A stretch of 64,000 nt of DNA from Methanospirillum hungatei JF-1 (GTDB lineage Archaea > Halobacteriota > Methanomicrobia > Methanomicrobiales > Methanospirillaceae), in the NCBI RefSeq assembly GCF_000013445.1, contig NC_007796.1:1958936-2022935 (forward strand), in the 5' to 3' direction. The notes beneath the pieces were generated by a model. That model had not been told where the DNA came from. It saw nothing but the letters and a program-made list of their open reading frames with translations, and made no database searches. Made by a program: the position numbers and the translations under genes. Positions 33,111 to 48,526 of this stretch are shown in pieces; positions within the stretch are counted from its first letter, which is position 1, and each line of letters starts with the position of its first letter.

Positions 33111-33431
33111 TTAGCTCCTCATTACCACATTGTATCCAATTGCTCTCCGGAGCAGCCGTTCCACATATCCGCTCACTTCATCGCCTTTTCGTGGTGCAGG
33201 AATCGGGATGATGACCGGGTGATAACACCGCTCAACCTGTTCATACAGACTCTTGTCAAGATTGGCCAGGTAATCCTCCCTGATGGCAATTATTCCGGTC
33301 TCCTCTTCGTGAAGGAGAGATGAAAGAACTCTGGATGCTTCAAAGGAATCTTCCACCTCAAGGACATCAGATCCGGCAAGACGAAACCCGGTTGCTGATT
33401 CCGGATCAGTGATGACGACGACTTTATACAT
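33111..33431 (-). CDS. atpF: A1AO ATP synthase subunit F, operon 1
   Basis: 106 residues. Rossmann-like N-terminal domain ([20 protein letters not shown]) and a C-terminal helix ([15 protein letters not shown]) that reaches into the head. It binds the D shaft and modulates ATP hydrolysis. Overlaps subunit C by 8 bases. Confidence 0.92.
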
Positions 33432-34473
33432 ACACCATCTCAGCCTCCATATCTTCAGGGGGGATCAGGGCATTTTTACACCGGGCGATGATACGCAGGT
33501 TCATTATCTCGGTGTATTTTGCCCACAGATACCCGATAACCACCGTCACCGACAGAGGATCCCCCCGGTATAACCTGACTGCATGTCTGATGAGATATTC
33601 ATCAAGAAGATGCTGGTACGTGGATATTTTAACTGTATCGCCTTCGGTGCTTCGAAGATCAGAAAGAAACCGGTACGGAGTCTCTTCAAGATATTCAATG
33701 AGCGATGCTATGGAGCCAAGATTTAATAGCATTTTGAGCTTCTTTCGGTTGAAGACCTTTCCACCATCCAGAAGCATTGGCTGAGCATCTTCAGGATCCA
33801 CATGATCCCGAAACATCATCAGGAGTGATTTAATATTGATAAGATCGATTTCAGTTCCGATAATCTCACGGATCTTACGCTCTTCAACAGATTTGCCACC
33901 GACAAGAGAAAGAGCCCGCTCATAATAGAACCGGTCCAGGGCATTTTCCAGTATGAAGAGATCTCCCTGAGCATTATAATCAGGAAATGCCTGGGTGAGG
34001 GGTATGGCATAGGGGACTTCCCAGGTTGCCAGAAGATCAATGACGCTTTTGACATCCGGCTGTTTTAAGAGTTCAGATAGGAGTGATTCATCAAATTCTC
34101 CAGCTGGAACCAGATTCTCCCGGATCTGCATGGTTGGCACTTTAATCCTCTTTCCACGCAGAATGGTTTTTAAATTGTGAATATCCCATCGGGAAGAAAA
34201 GATGAGGATATACCGCTCTCCTTTCTCTCCCTGAAGAAATTCCGAGATCTTCTGAATCGTTCTGATAAGATTCAGCCGGAGAGCTTCCTCTATCCCGCTC
34301 AGCCCGGATTTTCCGACAAGGGCACGCTCGAGATCCTCATGATATGAAGTCTCTTCCAGGGCAGTTATCAGGGAACTGATGTCAGGCTTTAAAATCAGGT
34401 TGCTTAAACTTTTTTTATCAAGCAACCGGGAGTACATACCCCGAATCCTGGCATTGACATACCCGCTATCCAT
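33424..34473 (-). CDS. atpC: A1AO ATP synthase subunit C, operon 1
   Basis: About 349 residues, all helical, soluble. It sits on the K ring like a socket and connects it to the D/F shaft. Diagnostic: GYVNARIRGMYSRLL at the N terminus and the C-terminal GYLWAKYTEIMNLRIIARC. I chose the ATG at 34473, which has GGAGGG just upstream; an ATG at 34485 is also in frame. Overlaps subunit E by 8 bases. No transmembrane segment, unlike its operon 2 paralogue. Confidence 0.93.
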   Translation of the reverse strand: MDSGYVNARIRGMYSRLLDKKSLSNLILKPDISSLITALEETSYHEDLERALVGKSGLSGIEEALRLNLIRTIQKISEFLQGEKGERYILIFSSRWDIHNLKTILRGKRIKVPTMQIRENLVPAGEFDESLLSELLKQPDVKSVIDLLATWEVPYAIPLTQAFPDYNAQGDLFILENALDRFYYERALSLVGGKSVEERKIREIIGTEIDLINIKSLLMMFRDHVDPEDAQPMLLDGGKVFNRKKLKMLLNLGSIASLIEYLEETPYRFLSDLRSTEGDTVKISTYQHLLDEYLIRHAVRLYRGDPLSVTVVIGYLWAKYTEIMNLRIIARCKNALIPPEDMEAEMVYV

Positions 34474-35059
34474 CAGGCCCTCCAAGAATCAGGTTGATAA
34501 TCTCAAGGGTAGACGTATCCCTGATCCGTTCCATTCTGCTTTCCAGGGTGTTATATGCACGAATCCTGCCATCTGCAGATGTTCCGGATAATCCACCAAT
34601 TGTCGTGATATCCTGCATAATATCACAAACTATACCGGTTTTTTTGAGTACATCACTGCAAATTTTCGAATCTGCCGGATCAATATGAAGAATGATTTCT
34701 TCTCCAGCAAGGGCGGAAATAACCTCACGAGTCAGCCGCTCATACAAAGCAGGATATGATGGATCAGACCTGATTCCGGAGATCTTCTCTTTGGAACGGG
34801 AAAACGCATCATCAATGAGTTTTTGTCTGACTGCACTGATCCTTTTCTTCACTTCCTGTTTCGCAAGGAATTTCTGGCGGTTATTCTCCAGAATCAGGTC
34901 CCGTTTCGCTTTCTCCAGGTATTGAGCATGGATGGCAGATGATTCTGTCTCTGCTTCCCGAAGAATTGCCTCCACTTCTCGTTCAGCATTCCGGAGAACT
35001 TCCTGTTTTTTCTCCTCGGCTGCTGATTCTATGGACTTGATAAGGTCTTCGTATGCCAT
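34466..35059 (-). CDS. atpE: A1AO ATP synthase subunit E, operon 1
   Basis: About 197 residues, with a long N-terminal coiled coil (MAYEDLIKSIESAAEEKKQE...) and a globular C-terminal domain. It forms the peripheral stator stalk with subunit H. The start at 35059 follows a GGTGAGC site by 5 bases; the longer frame to 35107 would overlap subunit K and adds 16 residues without family similarity. Confidence 0.92.
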   Translation of the reverse strand: MAYEDLIKSIESAAEEKKQEVLRNAEREVEAILREAETESSAIHAQYLEKAKRDLILENNRQKFLAKQEVKKRISAVRQKLIDDAFSRSKEKISGIRSDPSYPALYERLTREVISALAGEEIILHIDPADSKICSDVLKKTGIVCDIMQDITTIGGLSGTSADGRIRAYNTLESRMERIRDTSTLEIINLILGGPDG

Positions 35060-35099: not shown

Positions 35100-35318
35100 T
35101 CACTCAACCATAATGATGATCATTGCCGCTACGACAAAACCAAGAATAACCAGTGTTTCCGGAATTGCTTCAAGAACAATCACCGTACCGGCCGATTCAG
35201 GTCTTTCGGCCACGGTTCCGGCTCCGGCAGCACCAATCTTTGACTGAGCGATTCCTGTGGCAATTGCGCCTCCTGCAAAGGCGATTGCTGCGCCAATGGG
35301 GACTTCCCATCCTGTCAT
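35100..35318 (-). CDS. atpK: A1AO ATP synthase rotor subunit K, operon 1 (single hairpin)
   Basis: 72 residues from the ATG at 35318 (GGAGGT 4 bases upstream); a longer frame from 35330 adds 4. Two transmembrane helices form one hairpin: the first is rich in Gly/Ala (IGAAIAFAGGAIATGIA), the second carries the ion-binding Glu in IPETLVILGFVVAA. This is the standard one-carboxylate-per-hairpin c subunit. Copies assemble into the membrane rotor ring. Confidence 0.94.
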   Translation of the reverse strand: MTGWEVPIGAAIAFAGGAIATGIAQSKIGAAGAGTVAERPESAGTVIVLEAIPETLVILGFVVAAMIIIMVE

Positions 35319-35402
35319 GATAACCTCCATCGTTTACCTTATCCTGTGCAGATTTATATATTGTGGTTTGTCTGTCAAAAGAAAGAGAATGGAAAAAAAG
35401 AA

Positions 35403-38072: not shown

Positions 38073-38678
38073 ATGTCATCTTCATCTAAACCAAAAGCAT
38101 CTTCACCGGATCAAAATACTCCAGAAGAACCGCTCTCCTTTGAAAAAGTCTGGCTCATGTTCCAGGAGACAGATAAGAAATTCCAGGATACAGATAGAAA
38201 ATTTAAGGAGACTGACCAGAAGTTTAAGGAAACTGATAAAAAACTAAACAAACTGGAACGTTTATTCGTATCCCAATGGGGAACACTCGTAGAATCCCTG
38301 GTTGAAGGAGATATAATTTCGATTCTCAATCAGCGTGGGATAGAAGTAACTGACACCATTAAACGCAGATCCGGGCGGCGTGACGGTGTTGATTACGAGT
38401 TTGATATCATCGCGATCAACGGAACTGAAATAGTAATCGTGGAAGTAAAAACCACCCTCCGACCCGAAGATATCAGAGATTTTTTGAATAAACTAAAATA
38501 TGCGAAGACCTGGATGCCCGAATATTCTGACAAGCGGGTGTACGGTGCGGTTGCATTTATATCAGAAGACGCCGGTACTGCAGCAATGGCTGAGAAGAAT
38601 GGGCTGTTCGTGATCCGTGCAACGGGTGACAGTGCCAGCATAGTAAATACAGATACCTTCATTCCAAAGGTCTGGTAG
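38073..38678 (+). CDS. Coiled-coil, PD-(D/E)XK nuclease-like protein (DUF3782 type)
   Basis: 201 residues. A Ser/Pro-rich head is followed by a heptad coiled coil made of four near-repeats of KFxxTDx (residues ~29-58). The C-terminal domain (~70-201) has the nuclease-fold core: YEFDII, a turn, then IVIVEVKTTL, giving the Asp and E-x-K of PD-(D/E)XK proteins. This matches DUF3782-like proteins that are abundant in methanogens and cyanobacteria; their function is unknown. It stands between the two ATP synthase operons on the opposite strand. Confidence 0.72.
   Translation: MSSSSKPKASSPDQNTPEEPLSFEKVWLMFQETDKKFQDTDRKFKETDQKFKETDKKLNKLERLFVSQWGTLVESLVEGDIISILNQRGIEVTDTIKRRSGRRDGVDYEFDIIAINGTEIVIVEVKTTLRPEDIRDFLNKLKYAKTWMPEYSDKRVYGAVAFISEDAGTAAMAEKNGLFVIRATGDSASIVNTDTFIPKVW
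38160..38243 (+). repeat. Four 21-bp tandem repeats coding the coiled coil
   Basis: Four imperfect copies of 21 bases (38160-38180, 38181-38201, 38202-38222, 38223-38243), e.g. TTCCAGGATACAGATAGAAA. Each encodes one heptad (F-x-x-T-D-x-K). Repeat number could vary between strains. Confidence 0.75.
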
Positions 38679-38705: not shown

Positions 38706-39554
38706 ATGTTCAGACGAATTCTGTTTCCAACTGATTTTTCAGATTATGCACGGCGTGTCATGGACTGCATCGCAGATCTCCCCGGCGTTGAGGAGGTTGT
38801 GCTGGTTCATATCGTAGGTACAGATAAACCGGCTTCTTTGAGAGGAGATATCACATCAACTGCAAAGAACCGGATAGAGACTGAAGCATCCCTTTTAAAA
38901 AGTCTCGGTATTCCATCCATCAAATCTGAAGTTCTTGTTTCAGAATCTATCGCCTCAGGAATTGATGATGCAGCGACACGAAATAACTCGACCATCATTG
39001 TCATGGGTGCCAGGGGAAAAAGCATCATCAAAGGTCTGCATCTGGGGAGTGTTACCCACCGGATCCTCCATGACTCAAAGAAGAATCTCCTGATCATGAG
39101 GGGGCAGATAATTGAAACCCTATCTGGAGAGAAGTTTCAGAAGTACTGCCCCCTGATCTTTTCACGGGTCCTGGTTCCGGTTGATCTTACCCCTGAATCA
39201 TGGACAGCGGTCGAACAACTGGCGAAGATTCCTGATGTTGGAGAGATCATTGTTGCCTTTGTGATCTCACGGGGTGAGACTGAACGGGAACTTGAACGTA
39301 TCAGAATCCAGGCAGAACAGGACATTCAGGAGAGATGTAAACAGATTCAAACTGCCGGAGCAGAGATCAGGCATCGTATCCTTGAAGGCGATCTTGTCAG
39401 CCGGATACTGGATTATGCACAGGAGGCGGATGTCTCCCTTATCAGTACCGTGCCAACAGAGAAAGGATTTTTCGCCGAGATGCTCCATGGAAGTTTTTCA
39501 TGTGAACTGGCACGGCTGGCAACAAAACCGGTTCTTGTCATCAGAAGATCATAA
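38706..39554 (+). CDS. Tandem UspA-domain universal stress protein
   Basis: 282 residues with two Usp folds. Domain 1 (~1-140) keeps the ATP-binding signature G-x2-G-x9-GS (in MGARGKSIIKGLHLGS). Domain 2 (~150-282) has HGSFSCELARLATKPVLVI but lacks the first two glycines, so it probably does not bind ATP in the usual way. Cytosolic, role unknown. The 3' end overlaps the end of atpD of operon 2 by 6 bases on opposite strands, so the two transcripts converge. Confidence 0.88.
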   Translation: MFRRILFPTDFSDYARRVMDCIADLPGVEEVVLVHIVGTDKPASLRGDITSTAKNRIETEASLLKSLGIPSIKSEVLVSESIASGIDDAATRNNSTIIVMGARGKSIIKGLHLGSVTHRILHDSKKNLLIMRGQIIETLSGEKFQKYCPLIFSRVLVPVDLTPESWTAVEQLAKIPDVGEIIVAFVISRGETERELERIRIQAEQDIQERCKQIQTAGAEIRHRILEGDLVSRILDYAQEADVSLISTVPTEKGFFAEMLHGSFSCELARLATKPVLVIRRS

Positions 39555-40226
39555 CAGATTGGAAGTCTGATCTCCTCCCCTCTCCTTCCGCTCCATGTTC
39601 TGCTTCATCCGCTTTCTTCTGAAGAGGTCCTCCCGCTCCCTTTCCTCAAGCCTGAACTCAATATACCGCATGGTCCGCACCAGCCGGGGAATGACAAGAT
39701 GCTCAAGGGCATTCACTCGTCTTCTCGTTTTGTTCATCTCAAGCGAGATTCGATCCACCCTTCCTTCAAGTGACGCATAGGTGATAAGGGACTCTAAAAC
39801 CGATTCATACCGGAGAGCTGCCTCATCAACCTGCCCGGACGTACCTGCCATGCTATATCCCCGCTGGGTCATGAAATACCCCGTCACGTCAGGCATAGAG
39901 ATAACAGGAACATGGACACCCATAACCTGGGAAGCGGTGACCGTAGGCTCCGGGATCTTTCCACAGGCTGCAGCCAGTTCTTCAAGTCTGACCCATCCGG
40001 TCATGATCCCTGCCAGTTCAAGTGCATTATAGGCAGCCTGCAGTTGATCCTGGATTGAAACAGCCATGGTTTCCAGCTCTTTTGTGAGGCGTGCATGCTC
40101 AATGACGAGGGCATCCAGCTTCTCCTGCAGGATATCCCTGCCTTTGCGGGCGATCTGCTCACGTCGTGAGAGCCGTATCAATTCCAGCCGCGTTGGCCTT
40201 ACCCCGGCAATTACGGCCCTTTGCAT
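39549..40226 (-). CDS. atpD: A1AO ATP synthase subunit D, operon 2
   Basis: 225 residues of coiled coil with the same diagnostic ends as the operon 1 copy: [21 protein letters not shown] at the N terminus and [15 protein letters not shown] near the C terminus. Central rotor shaft. Overlaps subunit B by 16 bases. Last gene of operon 2, converging with the UspA gene. Confidence 0.94.
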
Positions 40227-41620
40227 TCCAGAATCTCCTCGCCATGATAGTACATTTTGATAAACTCAGTGCTGATCCGCTTCAGCTCAGCCTTTGGAAG
40301 AATTGACAAAAGGTCCCACGCAAGGGTGAGCGTGTCATCAAAAGAACGATCCTCGTATGATGCCTGCCTGATGAAATCATTCTCAAACCGGTCACAAAAC
40401 CGGATATAGAGTTTATCAAGCGGCGTCAGCCCCTCTTCTCCCATAACTGCTACGAGACTTTTCAGCCTGATACCCCTGGCATATGCAGAGTAGAGCTGGT
40501 TTTTCACCTCAGCATGATCGGCCCTCGTCCTGCCTGGGCCTATCCCTCCCTGCATAAGACGGGAGAGACAGGGGAGGACATCAACAGGCGGGTAGATTCC
40601 TTTCCGGTGAAGATCCCGTGAGAGAACAATCTGGCCTTCGGTGATATAGCCGGTCAGGTCAGGGACCGGGTGGGTGATATCATCGTCAGGCATTGTCAGG
40701 ATGGGAATCTGGGTAATAGAACCTTCCCTCCCACGAATACGGCCGGCACGCTCATAGAGAGATGCAAGATCGGTATAAATATACCCTGGATACCCACGTC
40801 TGCCCGGAACCTCCTCCCTCGCTGCTGCAATCTCACGAAGTGCTTCACAATAATTGGTGAGATCCGTAAGCACCACAAGGACATGCATACCCTTGTCAAA
40901 AGCCAGGTATTCTGCGGTGGTAAGGGCCAGCCGTGGAGTTATAATCCGTTCAATGGCCGGGTCATCTGCCAGATTGAGGAAGAGAACCGTCCGTTCCAGT
41001 GCTCCGCTCTCCTCAAACTCCCTGATGAAAAAGGCCGACTCTTCATAGGTAATACCCATCGCAGCAAAGACAACCGCAAACTTCTCTGCCTGACCGGTCA
41101 CTTTTGCCTGTCGTGCAATCTGTGAAGCCAGCAGGTTATGGGGAAGTCCTGCTCCGGAAAATATGGGAAGTTTCTGACCCCGGACCAGAGTGTTCATACC
41201 ATCTATGGATGAAATCCCGGTCTGAATGGAGTCGCGGGGATGTTCACGGGCAGACGGATTTATCGGAGATCCGTAGATATCACGGATACATTCAGGAATG
41301 ACCGGGCCGCCACCATCTATTGGCCGGGCACTCCCATCAAATGTCCTCCCAAGCATGTCTGATGACAGGGATATCTTCATCGGCTCTCCCCTGAACCTGA
41401 CTTGTGTCTTCTCGGTATCCAGATCCCTCGTCCCCCGGAATACCTGCACCATGGCCCTGGTCGTTGTTGTCTCAAGCACCTGGCCGATTCGGACCTCACC
41501 GCCGGGGAGCGTGATCTCTGCTATCTCACCATACCCGATCCCCTCGACACCGTCAAGAACCATGAGCGGACCGACCACCTTTGACACTCCGGTATAGGTC
41601 CGAAATCTCAGATCGGTCAT
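40211..41620 (-). CDS. atpB: A1AO ATP synthase subunit B, operon 2 (non-catalytic)
   Basis: 469 residues, co-linear with the operon 1 copy. The degenerate P-loop reads [15 protein letters not shown], and [20 protein letters not shown] is shared with the operon 1 copy. Overlaps subunit A by 4 bases. Similarity to the operon 1 copy is high in the core, low in the C-terminal ~100 residues. Confidence 0.96.
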
Positions 41621-43383
41621 AAAACCTCCTTCAGATCCCGTATCGCGTCCGTATCACGGGCTATACTTTCAAAGAGCGGATCCTCCTCTTCAGGGGATGC
41701 AGTGCCCATTCTTGCAAATGATTCAATGACAGGAAGACCACGGAGCCGTGAGACAGAAATCCCGGTTTCAAGAGCTCGTTCTGCCTGGGAGAAGAACGTG
41801 AAGATGGCTTTTAACATACGATATTGTTTCTTCGGGCCGGTAAATGTATCAAATTCATCAAAGGCATACTGCATGAGGTAACTCTCCCGAAGGATCTCGG
41901 CCTTTAAGAGGAGCAGACGGTCAGATTCAGGAAGTGTTTCCGGACCGACCAGGCGGATGATCTCCTCCAGCTCATTCTCCCGTTGTAATATCTCCATCAT
42001 CTCCTGCTTCATCCTGATAAACTCCGGGCCGATATGCTCCTCCCACCATATCCCGGCGATAGGACTGTACAAAGAGTAAGACATGAGCCAGTTGATCGCA
42101 GGAAAGTGCCGCTGATACGCAAGATCCGCATCAAGTGCCCAGAATACCTTGACAATACGAAGCGTGTTCTGAGTGACCGGTTCTGAAAAATCTCCACCCG
42201 GCGGGGAGACCGCTCCGATTACCGAGATGGATCCCTCATGATCCCCTGACCCAAGCAGAGACACCCTGCCGGCACGCTCATAAAAGTCAGCAAGCCGGGA
42301 ACTCAGGTATGCAGGATAGCCTTCTTCTCCCGGCATCTCTTCAAGCCTTCCGGATATTTCACGCATCGCCTCTGCCCACCGTGATGTCGAGTCAGCCATA
42401 AGGGCAACATGGTACCCCATGTCACGGTAATATTCAGCAATGGTAATCCCGGTGTATACCGATGCTTCACGGGCTGCTACCGGCATGTTACTTGTATTTG
42501 CGATAAGAACCATCCGGCTGCTCAGGGCATGACCAGTCCGGGGATCCTTGAGGGTCGGGAACTGTTCAAGAACATCTGCCATCTCATTACCCCGTTCCCC
42601 GCACCCGATATAGATGATAATGTCTGCATTGACCCATTTTGCCAGCTGCTGCTGAACGACCGTTTTTCCCGAACCAAAGGGACCGGGAATAGCAGCAGTT
42701 CCCCCGCGGGCAAGAGGAAAGAGGGTGTCGATGATCCGCTGCCCGGTCAACAGCGGCTCCACAGGGTCCAGACGTTCACGAACCGGCCTCGGGTCTCGCA
42801 CCGGCCAACGCTGAATCATGGTGAGTTCTTTCTTCTCCTCTCCGGTATCAAGGATGACAATGGTATCAGTAATGACGTATTCTCCCTGTTCTGCAATGAA
42901 ATGTATAGTACCAGACAGGCCGGGCGGGATGAGAATATAATGATTGACCGATACCGACTCACGGACGCAGCCGATCCGGTCACCTTCCCGCACCATGTCA
43001 CCAGACTTTGCAAGAGGATAGAACCGGTATTTTTTTGTCCGGTCCAGAGCCGGAGCAGAGGAACCCCGTTCGATCATATCACCGGTATTCTTCAGGATCT
43101 CTTCAAGGGGCCGCTGGATTCCGTCGTACATGGTGCCGATAAGTCCCGGACCCAGTTCAACCGACAGCGGAAGATAGGTTCTGACTACCGGCTCACCAGG
43201 GGTAAGACCGATCGTCTCCTCATAGACCTGGATGGTGGCACGGTCCCCTTCAAGAATGATGATTTCACCGATTAATCCGTCATTTCCTACCCTCACCGAT
43301 TCATACATCCTGCTGCCGGCCATTCCTTCTGCTTCAACCACCGGACCGGTTACCCGGATAATTACACCGTTTTTCTCACCCAT
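41617..43383 (-). CDS. atpA: A1AO ATP synthase subunit A, operon 2 (catalytic)
   Basis: 588 residues with the V/A-type bulge insertion. The P-loop is the consensus [27 protein letters not shown] and [15 protein letters not shown] follow. The C-terminal domain ends with an acidic tail. It starts 49 bases after the stop of subunit F, an unusually wide gap for this operon; see the F entry. Confidence 0.96.
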
Positions 43384-43432: not shown

Positions 43433-43705
43433 TTACCCGGTGCAGAACGGTCCGGGTTCTGGCACATCCGGTATTACCGAGATAACCGGAATCAGATCTG
43501 ATGAACTCTTTATGTCATGTATTCTGTCCGGAATCATGGAGGCAACGGTTCTGGTCACCAGAATGATTCCAATATCTGAATCCTTCAGGCATGCATCCAG
43601 ATGAGCCCGTGACGCTTCTGCATCCTCACAAACATATCCTCTATGCACACCGCCAAGAAGAAATCCCATCACCATACGCCGGGATGCAAGCAGGGCTACT
43701 TTCAT
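43433..43705 (-). CDS. atpF: A1AO ATP synthase subunit F, operon 2 (truncated by TAA)
   Basis: 90 residues (MKVALLASRRMVMGFLLGGV...), the Rossmann-like part only. The frame stays open after the TAA at 43435-43433 for 18 more codons ([18 protein letters not shown]) to a TGA at 43376, which would overlap the subunit A start by 8 bases like the other junctions. The continuation falls where operon 1 F has its C-terminal helix. A single AAA-to-TAA or similar change could have cut the protein. The short form would lack the helix that contacts the head. Confidence 0.85.
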   Translation of the reverse strand: MKVALLASRRMVMGFLLGGVHRGYVCEDAEASRAHLDACLKDSDIGIILVTRTVASMIPDRIHDIKSSSDLIPVISVIPDVPEPGPFCTG

Positions 43706-44895
43706 GTCTCCTCCGGGACGGTGATGAGCATCGGGGTGATTTTGTCAGCAGAAAACCCATCATACAACCCTGATAAAATGATGCGGATATTGCGTAATTC
43801 AAATTCTTTTGCCACCAAGTACCAGAGCAGCGGACCTCCGATATGGTAATAGGTAAGCCCCAGCCTGGATATGGTATCGAGAAGGTACTGATCAAGAGCC
43901 ATATCCATCCGGAGCATCGTATCCGTAGAGGGATAGGTTCTAAGCACGGGGGAGAGGACGGGATCATATCCGGTCCCTGAGAGTTGCCGGAGAAGATCCG
44001 GAACACTCATCATCTCATTCATCTGAACCAGCCTCCACATGGGAAGTTCCTGACCGCCGTCAACCAGACAGGGCGGGATTGCATCAGGATTCCACCCGGA
44101 GTGTTTAACCCTGATGAGAGCCCGGATATTCTGGATATCAATCAGAACTGCTATAAAATCACGGTACGGGGAGGCCAGATATGTCTGGACCATCGACATC
44201 TGGCTTTTCAGTTCTGAAAAACCCATACAGTCAAGGGCATGATCCAGGTAAAATACGGACTTCTCTTTCTCGTAAAGAGCTAGAGATGAAAGGAGAGGTT
44301 CACCGTACCTGGTCTCCTGCAACAAACGAACGCCTTCACTCATGGACCGAACGTTCCCAAGCTTTGCTGCAAGATCCGGTGAGCATCCTTCCGGCCAGAG
44401 TCCCGGAGTTGCTGCAATCGCCCCTGCCCGGCCCATGTGGATCAGCCGGATGATCCGTTTGACTTTTGCAATCTCCTGAAAGAAGAGAACGGCATCAAAA
44501 AAGAGCCATGCATCCCGGGGAGCCTGCGAACGGAGCAATGTTACCTCCTCATACCATGCAAGGAGCAGTTCTTCTTCTGCCTGATCAGGTGTGCATTCTA
44601 TCGGTACGTCGATCAGATAACCATAACTCTTCAACCTGCTCATACAGTCCTGAACCGAACCACTCTGCATGAGTTCCCGAAGCTGTTCAGGTTCAATGAA
44701 AGGAACTCCTTTCGCCTTCAGCCGTGCTACTATCGGCGTATACGATGTTATCGACAACAGAACCGGAAAATATCCGGCGGTACTGAGAAGAGTCAGAAAG
44801 AGCAGAACCAGGATGACGATAAAAACTGCTCCTGACAGGTGGGTAAAATACGGGGAGCCTGCATCCAGAAGGGTGTTCAAATCAGGGATATCCAT
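43702..44895 (-). CDS. atpC: A1AO ATP synthase subunit C, operon 2, with N-terminal transmembrane helix
   Basis: About 397 residues from the ATG at 44895, whose A is shared with the subunit E stop (TGATG), so the start is well fixed. Residues ~20-50 are a strong hydrophobic segment (LSGAVFIVILVLLFLTLLS then AGYFPVLLS), absent from ordinary soluble C subunits. The rest matches subunit C: YTPIVARLKAKG near the start and GGPLLWYLVAKEFELRNIRI near the end. The socket on the K ring would thus be tethered in the membrane. Overlaps subunit F by 4 bases. Confidence 0.9.
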   Translation of the reverse strand: MDIPDLNTLLDAGSPYFTHLSGAVFIVILVLLFLTLLSTAGYFPVLLSITSYTPIVARLKAKGVPFIEPEQLRELMQSGSVQDCMSRLKSYGYLIDVPIECTPDQAEEELLLAWYEEVTLLRSQAPRDAWLFFDAVLFFQEIAKVKRIIRLIHMGRAGAIAATPGLWPEGCSPDLAAKLGNVRSMSEGVRLLQETRYGEPLLSSLALYEKEKSVFYLDHALDCMGFSELKSQMSMVQTYLASPYRDFIAVLIDIQNIRALIRVKHSGWNPDAIPPCLVDGGQELPMWRLVQMNEMMSVPDLLRQLSGTGYDPVLSPVLRTYPSTDTMLRMDMALDQYLLDTISRLGLTYYHIGGPLLWYLVAKEFELRNIRIILSGLYDGFSADKITPMLITVPEET

Positions 44896-45497
44896 CAACG
44901 TTCACCATGAAAGAGGATACGTGATGCTGCGACGATCATCTCACGTTCCAGGCGTACAAACCTGACCTCTACAGTATTGTCAATCACCACCCGGTCAGAG
45001 ATCCGCTCACAGATGACCCCGCCACTGGTAATAATCGGCTCTTCAGAGAGAATGAGCGAGAATCCTTCCTGGTTTATCCTGGAGATACTATCTGCTGCAA
45101 GCCTCCGATCATCCGGATGAACTTTTACAGCAATATCAGACGGGCCAAGGTTTTTTGCAGATTCGGTAATCATGGCCTCTAAAAATGAAGGATATTCAGG
45201 TCTTGTGCGTATCGTCTTCAGATACGAAGACACCTCATCAAAACACTGCCTGAGCATCTCCTCCCTGACCTCTCTGACCTTTCGTTTCGCTTCTATCCTG
45301 GTCCTCGACTCCTGACTAGCGATAAGCTGTCTGATCTCACGCTGGCCCTCTGCTATCCGGTGATTATAGGCATTTTCTGCTTTTTGTTCGGCCTGGGCTC
45401 TGATTGCACCCACATCACAGGCTTCTTCGGCCCTGATTGTCCGGATTTCTGCCTCAGCTTCCTCCCGTATCCGGTTGATAATGGTTTCAACAGACAT
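44895..45497 (-). CDS. atpE: A1AO ATP synthase subunit E, operon 2
   Basis: 200 residues with an N-terminal coiled coil (ETIINRIREEAEAEIRTIRAEEA...) and a C-terminal globular domain (SGGVICERISDRVVIDNTVE) typical of subunit E. Peripheral stalk. Its stop shares one base with the subunit C start. Confidence 0.92.
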   Translation of the reverse strand: MSVETIINRIREEAEAEIRTIRAEEACDVGAIRAQAEQKAENAYNHRIAEGQREIRQLIASQESRTRIEAKRKVREVREEMLRQCFDEVSSYLKTIRTRPEYPSFLEAMITESAKNLGPSDIAVKVHPDDRRLAADSISRINQEGFSLILSEEPIITSGGVICERISDRVVIDNTVEVRFVRLEREMIVAASRILFHGER

Positions 45498-45508
45498 ATG
45501 CCGACCGT

Positions 45509-46234
45509 TTATCCGCTAAAGAGGCCGAGGCCAAAGAGGATCAGAATGGCAACCAGCAGACCAAAGATGGCAAACGTCTCTGACATTGCAGCGAACACAA
45601 GCGATCTCCCAATCGCACCCGGGTTTCGTGCCGTTGCAGCAATCCCGCTTGAACAGGTAATCCCCTGACCGATGGCTGAAAAACCGGCCAGGCCGACCGC
45701 AAGACCTGCCCCTACAAGCCCGATTGCAACCGGCATCTCAACAGAGAAGTCTGATGATAATATCCCGGTAAGGGCAAGCATGAGAACGGCGATAAGAAGC
45801 CCATAAATTGCCTGGGTCTCACAGACTGCAGAAAATACAACACCTTTCCCAAACATCTCTGGTTTTTCAGCGGTATTAGCAACACCTGATGATGCAGCGA
45901 TGCCCTGACCAATTGCTGAAAAACCGGCCAGACCGACGGCAAGACCTGCTGCAACCGCCACAAGTCCTGCAGGAGTAGGGATGTCAGCGGCAGTCCCGCC
46001 CAGAAAACCACCCGCCTGAAGGATAAGAATTGCAATAAGAAGGCCATATATCGCCTGGGTCTGGGGAATTGCAGTAAACACGAGAGCCATACCAAATTTT
46101 TCAGACCGTTCTGATATCACCCCTGACGCTGCTGAACCCACAATACCCACTCCGATACCAGACCCAATAGCAGAACATCCCACTGCTATTCCGGCCCCGA
46201 TAGCCATTAAAACCGCTCCGGTCCCTATTGTCAT
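45509..46234 (-). CDS. atpK: A1AO ATP synthase rotor subunit K, operon 2 (triple hairpin)
   Basis: 241 residues with six transmembrane helices: three tandem copies of the two-helix hairpin. Equivalent ion-site positions are Q58 (AIPQTQAIYGLL), E139 (AVCETQAIYGLL) and E219 (AMSETFAIFGLL). So only hairpins 2 and 3 keep the carboxylate. The first halves also repeat (GLAVGLAGFSAIGQGI appears twice exactly). As I recall, Methanocaldococcus-type K subunits have a similar triplication with loss in hairpin 1. Overlaps subunit I by 4 bases. Confidence 0.95.
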   Translation of the reverse strand: MTIGTGAVLMAIGAGIAVGCSAIGSGIGVGIVGSAASGVISERSEKFGMALVFTAIPQTQAIYGLLIAILILQAGGFLGGTAADIPTPAGLVAVAAGLAVGLAGFSAIGQGIAASSGVANTAEKPEMFGKGVVFSAVCETQAIYGLLIAVLMLALTGILSSDFSVEMPVAIGLVGAGLAVGLAGFSAIGQGITCSSGIAATARNPGAIGRSLVFAAMSETFAIFGLLVAILILFGLGLFSG

Positions 46235-48210
46235 ATTACCTCCTCTCGTGTACCGCTTGTATACACACGGTGCTCATGAAACGGTACAAACTCTTTTCCG
46301 CCACCGGAATAGAATTTTCCAAAGAATTCAATATAATGCAGTCGCAGGGCATGGATTACACTTCCAAGAGTCTGGATGGCCAGGTTAAAGAGCTGGCCGG
46401 CAATACAGAAGAGTATTGCAGGTATTATCATCAACGGATGAACAGATGCAATCATTTCAGACAGTATGTTAATTGTCATGGCAATTCCTCCGGTTGCAAG
46501 AGCAAGAGCCAGGATTCTGACATAAGAAAGCCAGTCTCCCAAAAAACCGGTAAGACTGAAAAATCCCATCGGACCATTCCGGAAAAACAGAACCAGCAGA
46601 CCAATCACCGTGCCAAGAATTGCGAAATGCGTAACCAGGGGAGAGAAGGTCATCCATCCAAAGAAATCGATCAGCAGAACCACCGCTGCCGGTTGAATAA
46701 CGAACCAGATACCATGGTCCATAATGGCTGTCCGGTACATCCGGTCACGAACATTCTGCCACAATCCAAGGAAAATTCCCAGATTGATGTGAATAGTGCC
46801 GATAATCAGTGCTATCTGGAACAGTAGTATCGGCTGATTCAATGGCTCGATAAGAACAAACGGCGGCGTTACATTGAAAAACCGGGGGAGAAGATCCCCA
46901 AACCAGCCTCCCTGCAGTGTCCCAAGAAGGATATCAGCAACACCACACCAGATGAGAATATAACTCATGTCACGAAATGCCACATCATGTCTGCCCGGTC
47001 CCCGGTAGAGCAGCCACCCAACAAGGGCTATGATGATACCGTATCCGGCATCACCCAGCATCAGTCCAAAAAAGAGCAGGTATGCAGGGGCAAAAAAGGG
47101 CGTTGGATCAATCTCATTATACCGGGGCCTCGAGAATGTGGTGGTGAGGATCTCAAATGGTGCAAGCCATCCCGGGTTATCATACCGGACCGGAACATCA
47201 TCCTCAGGATCTGCAGGTTTTGAGAAGAGGAAAAACTCATCACCCGTGACTTTTCTAAGGACGTCGTGCAGGCGAGCCTGATCTTTTTCCCGAATCCACC
47301 CATGCAGGTATATTACATCCCTGCTTGAGCCAAAGTTCCGGGATACCTCATAACGGTCACGCCAGATCGAAAGTTCTTCCCGTATTACCCGAAGAGGGGT
47401 GAGATGGGACTCAGCCATGGAGATGAGATGAGCAGTCAGGCTCTCTTCCTCTCTCATATACTCTTCCAGCCGGTTCTGTTCGGTACGAATCATCTCACCT
47501 GGCATACCGGTATATGAATCAGGAAGCGTGATACGGAAGAACCATGCATGATGAGCCAGTTCTTCAAGACGCGGTCTCATTGCCAGGGTCCCAATGCACA
47601 AAACGATTATTTCCTGCCCGTTTTGTATCGTGTGATGATAGATCTCATCAGTTCCTGATTCTCTGAACCATGCCTCAAGAAGAGGGAGAGATTCCTGGAG
47701 AATCCACCCTGCTACCAGAAATGTATACGGAGCAGGTGCCAGGTAGGAGAGCGAACAACCTGGGACAGCAAGCCGGTTTAAGTTCTCTATCCTTTCCCGT
47801 GTTACCTGCTGCAACTCACGGTTTTGTTTTAAAGCCTCATATGTTGTAAGAACCGGTTCGGCCTGATCGAGCATCTCATGTGCAGCCTGAAAGACATCTC
47901 CAGGTGTATCATATCTGACCGGGAGCGGCTGAGAGTCTTTGGGAAAGAGCAGCGATAAAACCCCCTCCGGTCTGACCTCGTAGGGCTCAAGGATCTCCAA
48001 AATCCTGTCATATCTGAACTGAAGCGAAATAATCCTCTCAATATCTCCGCGGGGGATCTCAAATGATGTCTGGGGGATCTCAGTGCCCGTTCCCTTTTTC
48101 AGATCTAGGACTTCAAGCTCACCCTGCTCATGTAACGCAGAAGTAACATCCATGAGCCACCGGTTATGAATACCGATAACAACACTGTTCATTCTGGCCG
48201 GATAAAACAT
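46231..48210 (-). CDS. atpI: A1AO ATP synthase subunit I (a), operon 2
   Basis: 659 residues. The cytosolic N-terminal half is more diverged from the operon 1 copy than the membrane half. About eight C-terminal helices, with FFAPAYLLFFGLMLGDAGYG and SYVRILALALATGGIA (essential Arg region). The end reads FFGKFYSGGGKEFVPF, the standard subunit I tail. Its start is 1 base after the stop of subunit H. Confidence 0.95.
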   Translation of the reverse strand: MFYPARMNSVVIGIHNRWLMDVTSALHEQGELEVLDLKKGTGTEIPQTSFEIPRGDIERIISLQFRYDRILEILEPYEVRPEGVLSLLFPKDSQPLPVRYDTPGDVFQAAHEMLDQAEPVLTTYEALKQNRELQQVTRERIENLNRLAVPGCSLSYLAPAPYTFLVAGWILQESLPLLEAWFRESGTDEIYHHTIQNGQEIIVLCIGTLAMRPRLEELAHHAWFFRITLPDSYTGMPGEMIRTEQNRLEEYMREEESLTAHLISMAESHLTPLRVIREELSIWRDRYEVSRNFGSSRDVIYLHGWIREKDQARLHDVLRKVTGDEFFLFSKPADPEDDVPVRYDNPGWLAPFEILTTTFSRPRYNEIDPTPFFAPAYLLFFGLMLGDAGYGIIIALVGWLLYRGPGRHDVAFRDMSYILIWCGVADILLGTLQGGWFGDLLPRFFNVTPPFVLIEPLNQPILLFQIALIIGTIHINLGIFLGLWQNVRDRMYRTAIMDHGIWFVIQPAAVVLLIDFFGWMTFSPLVTHFAILGTVIGLLVLFFRNGPMGFFSLTGFLGDWLSYVRILALALATGGIAMTINILSEMIASVHPLMIIPAILFCIAGQLFNLAIQTLGSVIHALRLHYIEFFGKFYSGGGKEFVPFHEHRVYTSGTREEVI

Positions 48211-48211
48211 A

Positions 48212-48526
48212 TTACTCCCCGGTTATGAGTCGGATCAGGGTTGAAACAGCCGTATTTTTCTGTCTTTCTGCATAGGCCCTGATCTGTCCGGCCTCATGAT
48301 GCACCTCATCCATAAGACGGGCATGCTCCCGGGCAACCTGGCTTTCTGCCCGCTCCCTCTCTTCACGCAATCTTTTTTCAGCATCTGAAAGCCGCATCAG
48401 AACGAGACCTTCCCCCTCCCGTTTCGCTTCCTCAATTGCCAGCATCCTTCTGTGTCGTGCGGCTTCGATCAGAGCAGCAGCCTCTTCTTCACTGCGTTTT
48501 ATCTGATCTATTTCAGGGATTGCCAT
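48212..48526 (-). CDS. atpH: A1AO ATP synthase subunit H, operon 2
   Basis: 104 residues, one amphipathic coiled coil (EIDQIKRSEEEAAALIEAAR...), peripheral-stalk partner of subunit E. First subunit gene of operon 2. Identity rests on its coiled-coil character and its place before subunit I, the same as in operon 1. Confidence 0.85.
   Translation of the reverse strand: MAIPEIDQIKRSEEEAAALIEAARHRRMLAIEEAKREGEGLVLMRLSDAEKRLREERERAESQVAREHARLMDEVHHEAGQIRAYAERQKNTAVSTLIRLITGE

Follow-up and report, generated by a model that had tools for sequence, protein, structure and literature searches.

The window, a 64,000-nucleotide stretch of the Methanospirillum hungatei JF-1 genome (a single contig of 3,544,738 bases), contains two A-ATPase clusters, here termed operon 1 and operon 2; the genome paper describes three A-ATPase clusters, termed highly unusual (PMC4704411). 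The genes of operon 2 lie on the minus strand in the order H-I-K-E-C-F-A-B-D, and are listed below with the parts of subunit C and the operon 1 genes used for comparison.

48212–48526, minus strand: operon 2 subunit H/G-like, PF03179 match below cut-off
46231–48210, minus strand: operon 2 subunit I (stator)
45509–46234, minus strand: operon 2 subunit K, 241 aa, three hairpins with key residues Q, E and E
44895–45497, minus strand: operon 2 subunit E (peripheral stalk), its stop overlapping the C start
43702–44895, minus strand: operon 2 subunit C, 397 aa, with an N-terminal transmembrane (TM) helix; PF01992 with E of 7e-54 over residues 55–386
44842–44895, minus strand: N-terminal tail of C, residues 1–18, acidic (3 Asp, no Lys or Arg), predicted to lie outside
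44776–44841, minus strand: TM helix of C, residues 19–40, an AlphaFold2 helix with a Kyte–Doolittle (KD) value of 2.78
44710–44769, minus strand: first core helix of C, residues 43–62; its R58 and K60 align with Thermus R11/R13
43433–43705, minus strand: operon 2 subunit F
41617–43383, minus strand: operon 2 subunit A (catalytic)
40211–41620, minus strand: operon 2 subunit B
39549–40226, minus strand: operon 2 subunit D (central shaft)
35103–35330, minus strand: operon 1 subunit K, single hairpin, ETLVILG type (comparison)
33424–34482, minus strand: operon 1 subunit C, 352 aa, no TM helix (comparison)

Between the two operons lie genes for a protein with heptad-like repeats (38073–38678) and a tandem UspA-like protein (38706–39554), both recognized by eye. 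A fourth subunit C gene of the same genome (L006:7738-9484, about 3.0377–3.0395 Mb) stands beside a D-like gene only; it belongs to no ATPase operon and is not among the three clusters that the genome paper describes. A C and D-like pair resembling it is found at L222:306-2141.

A-type subunit C is a rotor part and the counterpart of eukaryotic subunit d. The operon 2 protein matched the subunit C/d family PF01992 (vATP-synt_AC39) with 183.8 bits against a gathering score of 29, and its gene lies between those for E and F, as in A-ATPase operons of the order H-I-K-E-C-F-A-B-D. An AlphaFold2 model of the monomer, obtained with a 53-sequence alignment as input, has a mean pLDDT of 88 and adopts the all-helical C/d fold, with a VIA Z of 25.7 to Thermus thermophilus C (1r5z; rmsd 3.6, 308 residues aligned), a VIA Z of 26.5 to rat d (rmsd 4.4, 337 aligned) and a Foldseek E of 4e-7. 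Sequence searches of the PDB gave only weak matches when the single protein was used as the query, while a profile query worked. Against the AhaC equivalog TIGR02923, operon 2 C scored 137.6 bits, below the curated cut-off of 240.5, and operon 1 C likewise fell below it with 229.1 bits. The score of operon 2 C against the long subunit C equivalog NF002267 (PRK01198.1-3) was 133.5 bits, far below the curated cut-off of 488, marking it as a divergent relative outside that equivalog. The NF002267 model, of 390 positions, reaches approximately 45 positions upstream of the core, and the alignment of operon 2 C to it starts shortly ahead of the TM helix, at residue 17; the NF002267 record names no TM segment.

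Subunit C of operon 2 has an N-terminal TM helix, as had been predicted from the window alone. Its best 19-residue KD mean, 2.78 at residue 20 (residues 20–38), was matched anywhere in the chain by 76 of 10,000 shuffles of the protein; the peak elsewhere in the chain is 1.13. AlphaFold2 models residues 19–40 as a helix (block pLDDT about 89–90), followed by a second helix at residues 43–62, and the ordinary PF01992 domain starts right after the TM helix, at residue 55. The original prediction had placed the hydrophobic stretch at residues ~20–50; its strength was borne out, but the TM helix itself comprises residues 19–40, and residues 43–62 form the next, ring-contacting helix. The accompanying statement that standard subunit C is soluble and has ~350 residues agrees with the operon 1 copy, which has 352 aa, a KD peak of 1.09 and no TM segment.

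The start codon is set by the junction with subunit E, also as predicted. The ATG of C overlaps the stop codon of E by one base, in ...CGTTGATGG..., and four relatives (L037, L038, L039 and L041) share this arrangement. The in-frame starts that would skip the helix are a TTG at codon 47 and an ATG at codon 76, and starting at the ATG would cost the protein its first core helix as well. Comparison of codons 1–50 with those of five congeners revealed more silent than replacement changes (pN/pS 0.05 to 0.43), indicating that the segment is translated and under selection.

The distribution of the helix was followed by searching 199 Methanomicrobiales genomes with C. About 55 of the matches, in frames of ~400 aa, have alignments that start close to the helix or within it; the rest, mostly in frames of ~355 aa, align by the C-terminal half alone. 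Three samples were drawn, comprising 60 Methanomicrobiales regions (most with a long C, six with an ordinary C), 20 regions from named methanogens reached through a McrA scan, and a further 60 from Halobacteriota, Methanococci and Methanobacteria; the survey was confined to these samples, and Enterococcus hirae was taken from papers. A total of 148 subunit C genes were scored for a TM segment just before the core and for the number of hairpins in the nearest upstream K.

The TM segment was found in 92 of the 148 genes. It accompanies a K with two or more hairpins in 87 genes and a one-hairpin K in three (L235, L245 and L274), while genes lacking it accompany a one-hairpin K in 37 cases and a K with two or more hairpins in one (L243); for 2 genes with and 18 without the TM segment, no upstream K was found. 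A TM-containing C is thus present with 87 of the 88 upstream K genes that have at least two hairpins. L253, scored as one-hairpin, carries a second K with three hairpins and Gln at every key residue; it is one more multi-hairpin case without the helix. Sharing of the helix by homologues with a triple-hairpin K, proposed as a check in the original prediction, was observed in 22 of the 22 sampled operons in which the nearest K upstream counted as triple-hairpin, and the helix also occurs beside K with 2, 4, 6 or 13 hairpins, the last in Methanopyri-type loci.

TM-containing C is present in Methanobrevibacter, Methanosphaera, Methanocaldococcus, Methanothermococcus and Methanoliparum, and was found in Methanococci, Methanobacteria and Methanopyri; the C of Methanococcoides, Archaeoglobi, Methanomassiliicoccales and operon 1-like loci has no TM segment. 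The helix is not a peculiarity of operon 2 or of triple hairpins, but the rule in a large archaeal clade that includes Methanocaldococcus, Methanobacteria and Methanopyri, and the three single-hairpin-K operons have it as well. Alignment showed that its sequence is poorly conserved while its hydrophobicity is kept, with a clade KD mean of 3.02 and a minimum of 1.97. A strong TM segment with the correct charge bias is retained in divergent C proteins down to about 20% identity. The helix is an old trait of one large archaeal A-ATPase clade, and the TM-containing C a conserved variant of the subunit in a major methanogen clade, undescribed in the literature searched. That search, mostly outside subscription journals, found neither structural nor biochemical work on a C with a TM segment, and no mention of its TM helix.

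For comparison with K, the K type was defined by the surroundings of the ion-binding residue, [E/Q/G]T[Q/H/F]x[I/V/L][Y/F]. ETQ/ETF/ETH-type K accompanies 90 C proteins with the TM segment and two without (L243 and L253); with other K types, none has the segment and 36 lack it. K sequence type is the best correlate of the helix, tracking it better than hairpin number does. The idea that hairpin number brings about the helix is weakened by L235, L245 and L274, which combine one hairpin with a helix, and also by L243 and L253, which combine several hairpins with none. Homologues with the same K type but no helix, which the original prediction regarded as evidence against it, were thus encountered in 2 of 92 cases, the other 90 having the helix. 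With the right K type and no helix, L243 and L253 indicate that the helix is not strictly required and is dispensable in some enzymes. The counts above are not independent of one another, and the link between helix and K type may reflect ancestry.

Several further features of K were observed. The Na+ ligands have been reported to be retained in the K subunits of Methanothermobacter, Methanobrevibacter and M. kandleri (PMC2359735). A search of plasmids with K gave no match. Complete K genes (window 45509–46234; L037-L090 and L206-L279) have 1, 2, 3, 4, 6 or 13 hairpins only. All of these numbers except 13 divide 12, which suggests rings of 12 hairpins built from 12, 6, 4, 3 or 2 copies. Six-hairpin K, of about 480 aa and twice the size of the window K, occurs in many Methanomicrobiales relatives of operon 2 (L043, L044, L046, L049, L052-L054, L056-L058 and others), and four-hairpin K at L055 and L244. 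In fused K, the first hairpin usually has Gln in place of Glu, except in Methanobacteria and Methanopyri, and this substitution would leave 10, 9, 8 or 6 carboxylates per predicted ring, with differing ion/ATP ratios. The operon at L253:2666-3649, with a C lacking the TM helix, encodes a single-hairpin K with Glu and a separate triple-hairpin K with Gln throughout, possibly forming a mixed ring with few carboxylates.

The orientation of the helix was assessed in the 90 of the 92 TM-containing C proteins with a usable start. On average, 0.19 Lys/Arg and 2.7 Asp/Glu precede the helix, while the 25 residues after it contain 3.7 Lys/Arg and 0.8 Asp/Glu. Positive charge is greater after the helix in 89 of the 90, corresponding to an N-out/C-in topology; by the positive-inside rule, this bias places the tail outside and the cap inside, the side on which the cap has to be.

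Structure alignment (Z about 24–26) places residue 51 of the operon 2 C model on residue 4 of Thermus C, and residues 42–45 on residues 1–4 of eukaryotic d, so that the TM helix lies just upstream of the point where solved relatives begin. No solved relative spanning residues 1–40 appeared in the VIA and Foldseek lists, which does not by itself prove that none exists. In the AlphaFold2 model of Methanocaldococcus C, the TM segment and the following helix form one unbroken helix of residues 26–67 (pLDDT 91), with block pLDDT of about 91–95 from residue 31 onward. In the Thermus subunit, R11 and R13 of the N-terminal helix make the contact with two inner helices of the ring (PMC5758568), and R58 and K60 of operon 2 C align with these residues. 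Because the TM segment is joined directly to the ring-contact helix, the ring lumen is its most economical placement. C rotates with the ring and the linker is short, and a helix outside the ring would sweep the stator subunit I; we therefore infer that it lies inside. The threading of the K ring envisaged in the original prediction agrees with this probable placement; judged from sequence, the helix may be a plug that seals the lumen or an axle that anchors and centres the cap, and the prediction is partly supported.

We propose, with a probability of roughly 75%, that operon 2 C is a rotor cap with a membrane helix in the lumen of the K ring. The helix would run down the lumen in line, or almost in line, with the first helix of C, which would itself rest on the inner ring helices. 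It would anchor the cap to the ring, hold it centred on the axis and fill part of a hole otherwise closed by lipid alone, and C, K and helix would turn together. A pure sealing role, as a plug, is less certain, because a single helix would probably be too small to fill so wide a lumen. The broader proposal, that a large archaeal A-ATPase clade, with the enzymes of Methanocaldococcus- and Methanobacteria-type methanogens among its members, has a covalent axle formed by a C helix through the ring lumen, a solution separate from that of the eukaryotic V-ATPase but in the same position, is favoured somewhat less strongly.

Alternatively, the helix could serve only as a co-translational targeting or assembly anchor that brings C to nascent K, with no later mechanical or sealing role. 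A single reverse signal-anchor topology would suffice for this purpose, and the retention of hydrophobicity with little conservation of sequence fits such a role. However, the C subunits of other A-ATPases assemble without a helix, and continuity of the TM segment with the ring-contact helix points to a fixed place in the rotor, making a role in targeting alone unlikely.

Slightly less likely again, the helix could be no more than a mark of descent within one ATPase clade, with its link to K type due to ancestry and not function. On a tree of 145 C cores, a quick tree with long branches flagged, the helix changes 3 times and the hairpin class 6 times; the independent pairs are too few for a sign test. 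With three TM changes on few branches, shared ancestry could explain the link to K without functional coupling, and the TM segment is kept in the three operons with one-hairpin K. Against this, the strong TM segment and its charge bias persist in divergent C proteins, and dN is below dS within the genus. Placement of the helix outside the ring, in contact with lipid or stator, is compatible with the monomer models, and a linker of 15–20 residues could in principle reach out, but rotating C would carry the helix past subunit I at each turn and the helix is attached where C meets the inner helices of the ring, rendering this improbable. That the protein really starts after the helix, at the TTG of codon 47, or that the helix is cleaved, is the least probable of all, given the start overlap conserved in several congeners, the purifying selection on codons 1–50, the conservation of the helix far beyond the genus, and the fact that a cleaved export signal would put C on the wrong side of the membrane.

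The axle placement can be compared with known systems, in which rotor rings need their hole closed and their cap centred. Operon 2 C has the domain (PF01992), fold (Z ~25) and operon place of A-type subunit C, such as Thermus thermophilus C (1r5z) and Methanosarcina AhaC, and the same presumed role as a cap between the D/F shaft and the ring. Thermus C and AhaC begin at the ring-contact helix, whereas operon 2 C adds a 40-residue N-terminal extension with the TM helix. The Thermus ring works without such a helix in C, as does the ring of Enterococcus hirae. Density in the Thermus ring lumen has been taken as lipid (PMC7367684). The E. hirae V-ATPase, a Na+ transporter with a ring of four-helix subunits, resembles operon 2 in having a multi-hairpin ring subunit and a small cap, but its d has no reported TM segment, and the small d on a large ring results in an off-axis assembly; its authors contrast this with eukaryotes, where the axis is fixed by additional subunits in the ring (PMC10382590). 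Should many methanogens rely on an extended cap instead, this would answer how archaeal A-ATPases with fused K hold cap and ring together, in enzymes on which the energy yield of methane formation depends. Accessory helices in the core of eukaryotic V-ATPase rings, cited in the original prediction, do occur: the bovine ring core contains three helices, with Ac45, the (pro)renin receptor and c'' TM1 each contributing a single helix, of which that of Ac45 touches subunit d (PMC7414150). These helices belong to polypeptides of their own or to a subunit of the ring, and Ac45 and the (pro)renin receptor are type I proteins with lumenal domains, unlike operon 2 C, in which the helix is a covalent part of the cap; no homology is claimed. 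One covalent helix in operon 2 C would thus do the job of the separate eukaryotic core helices.
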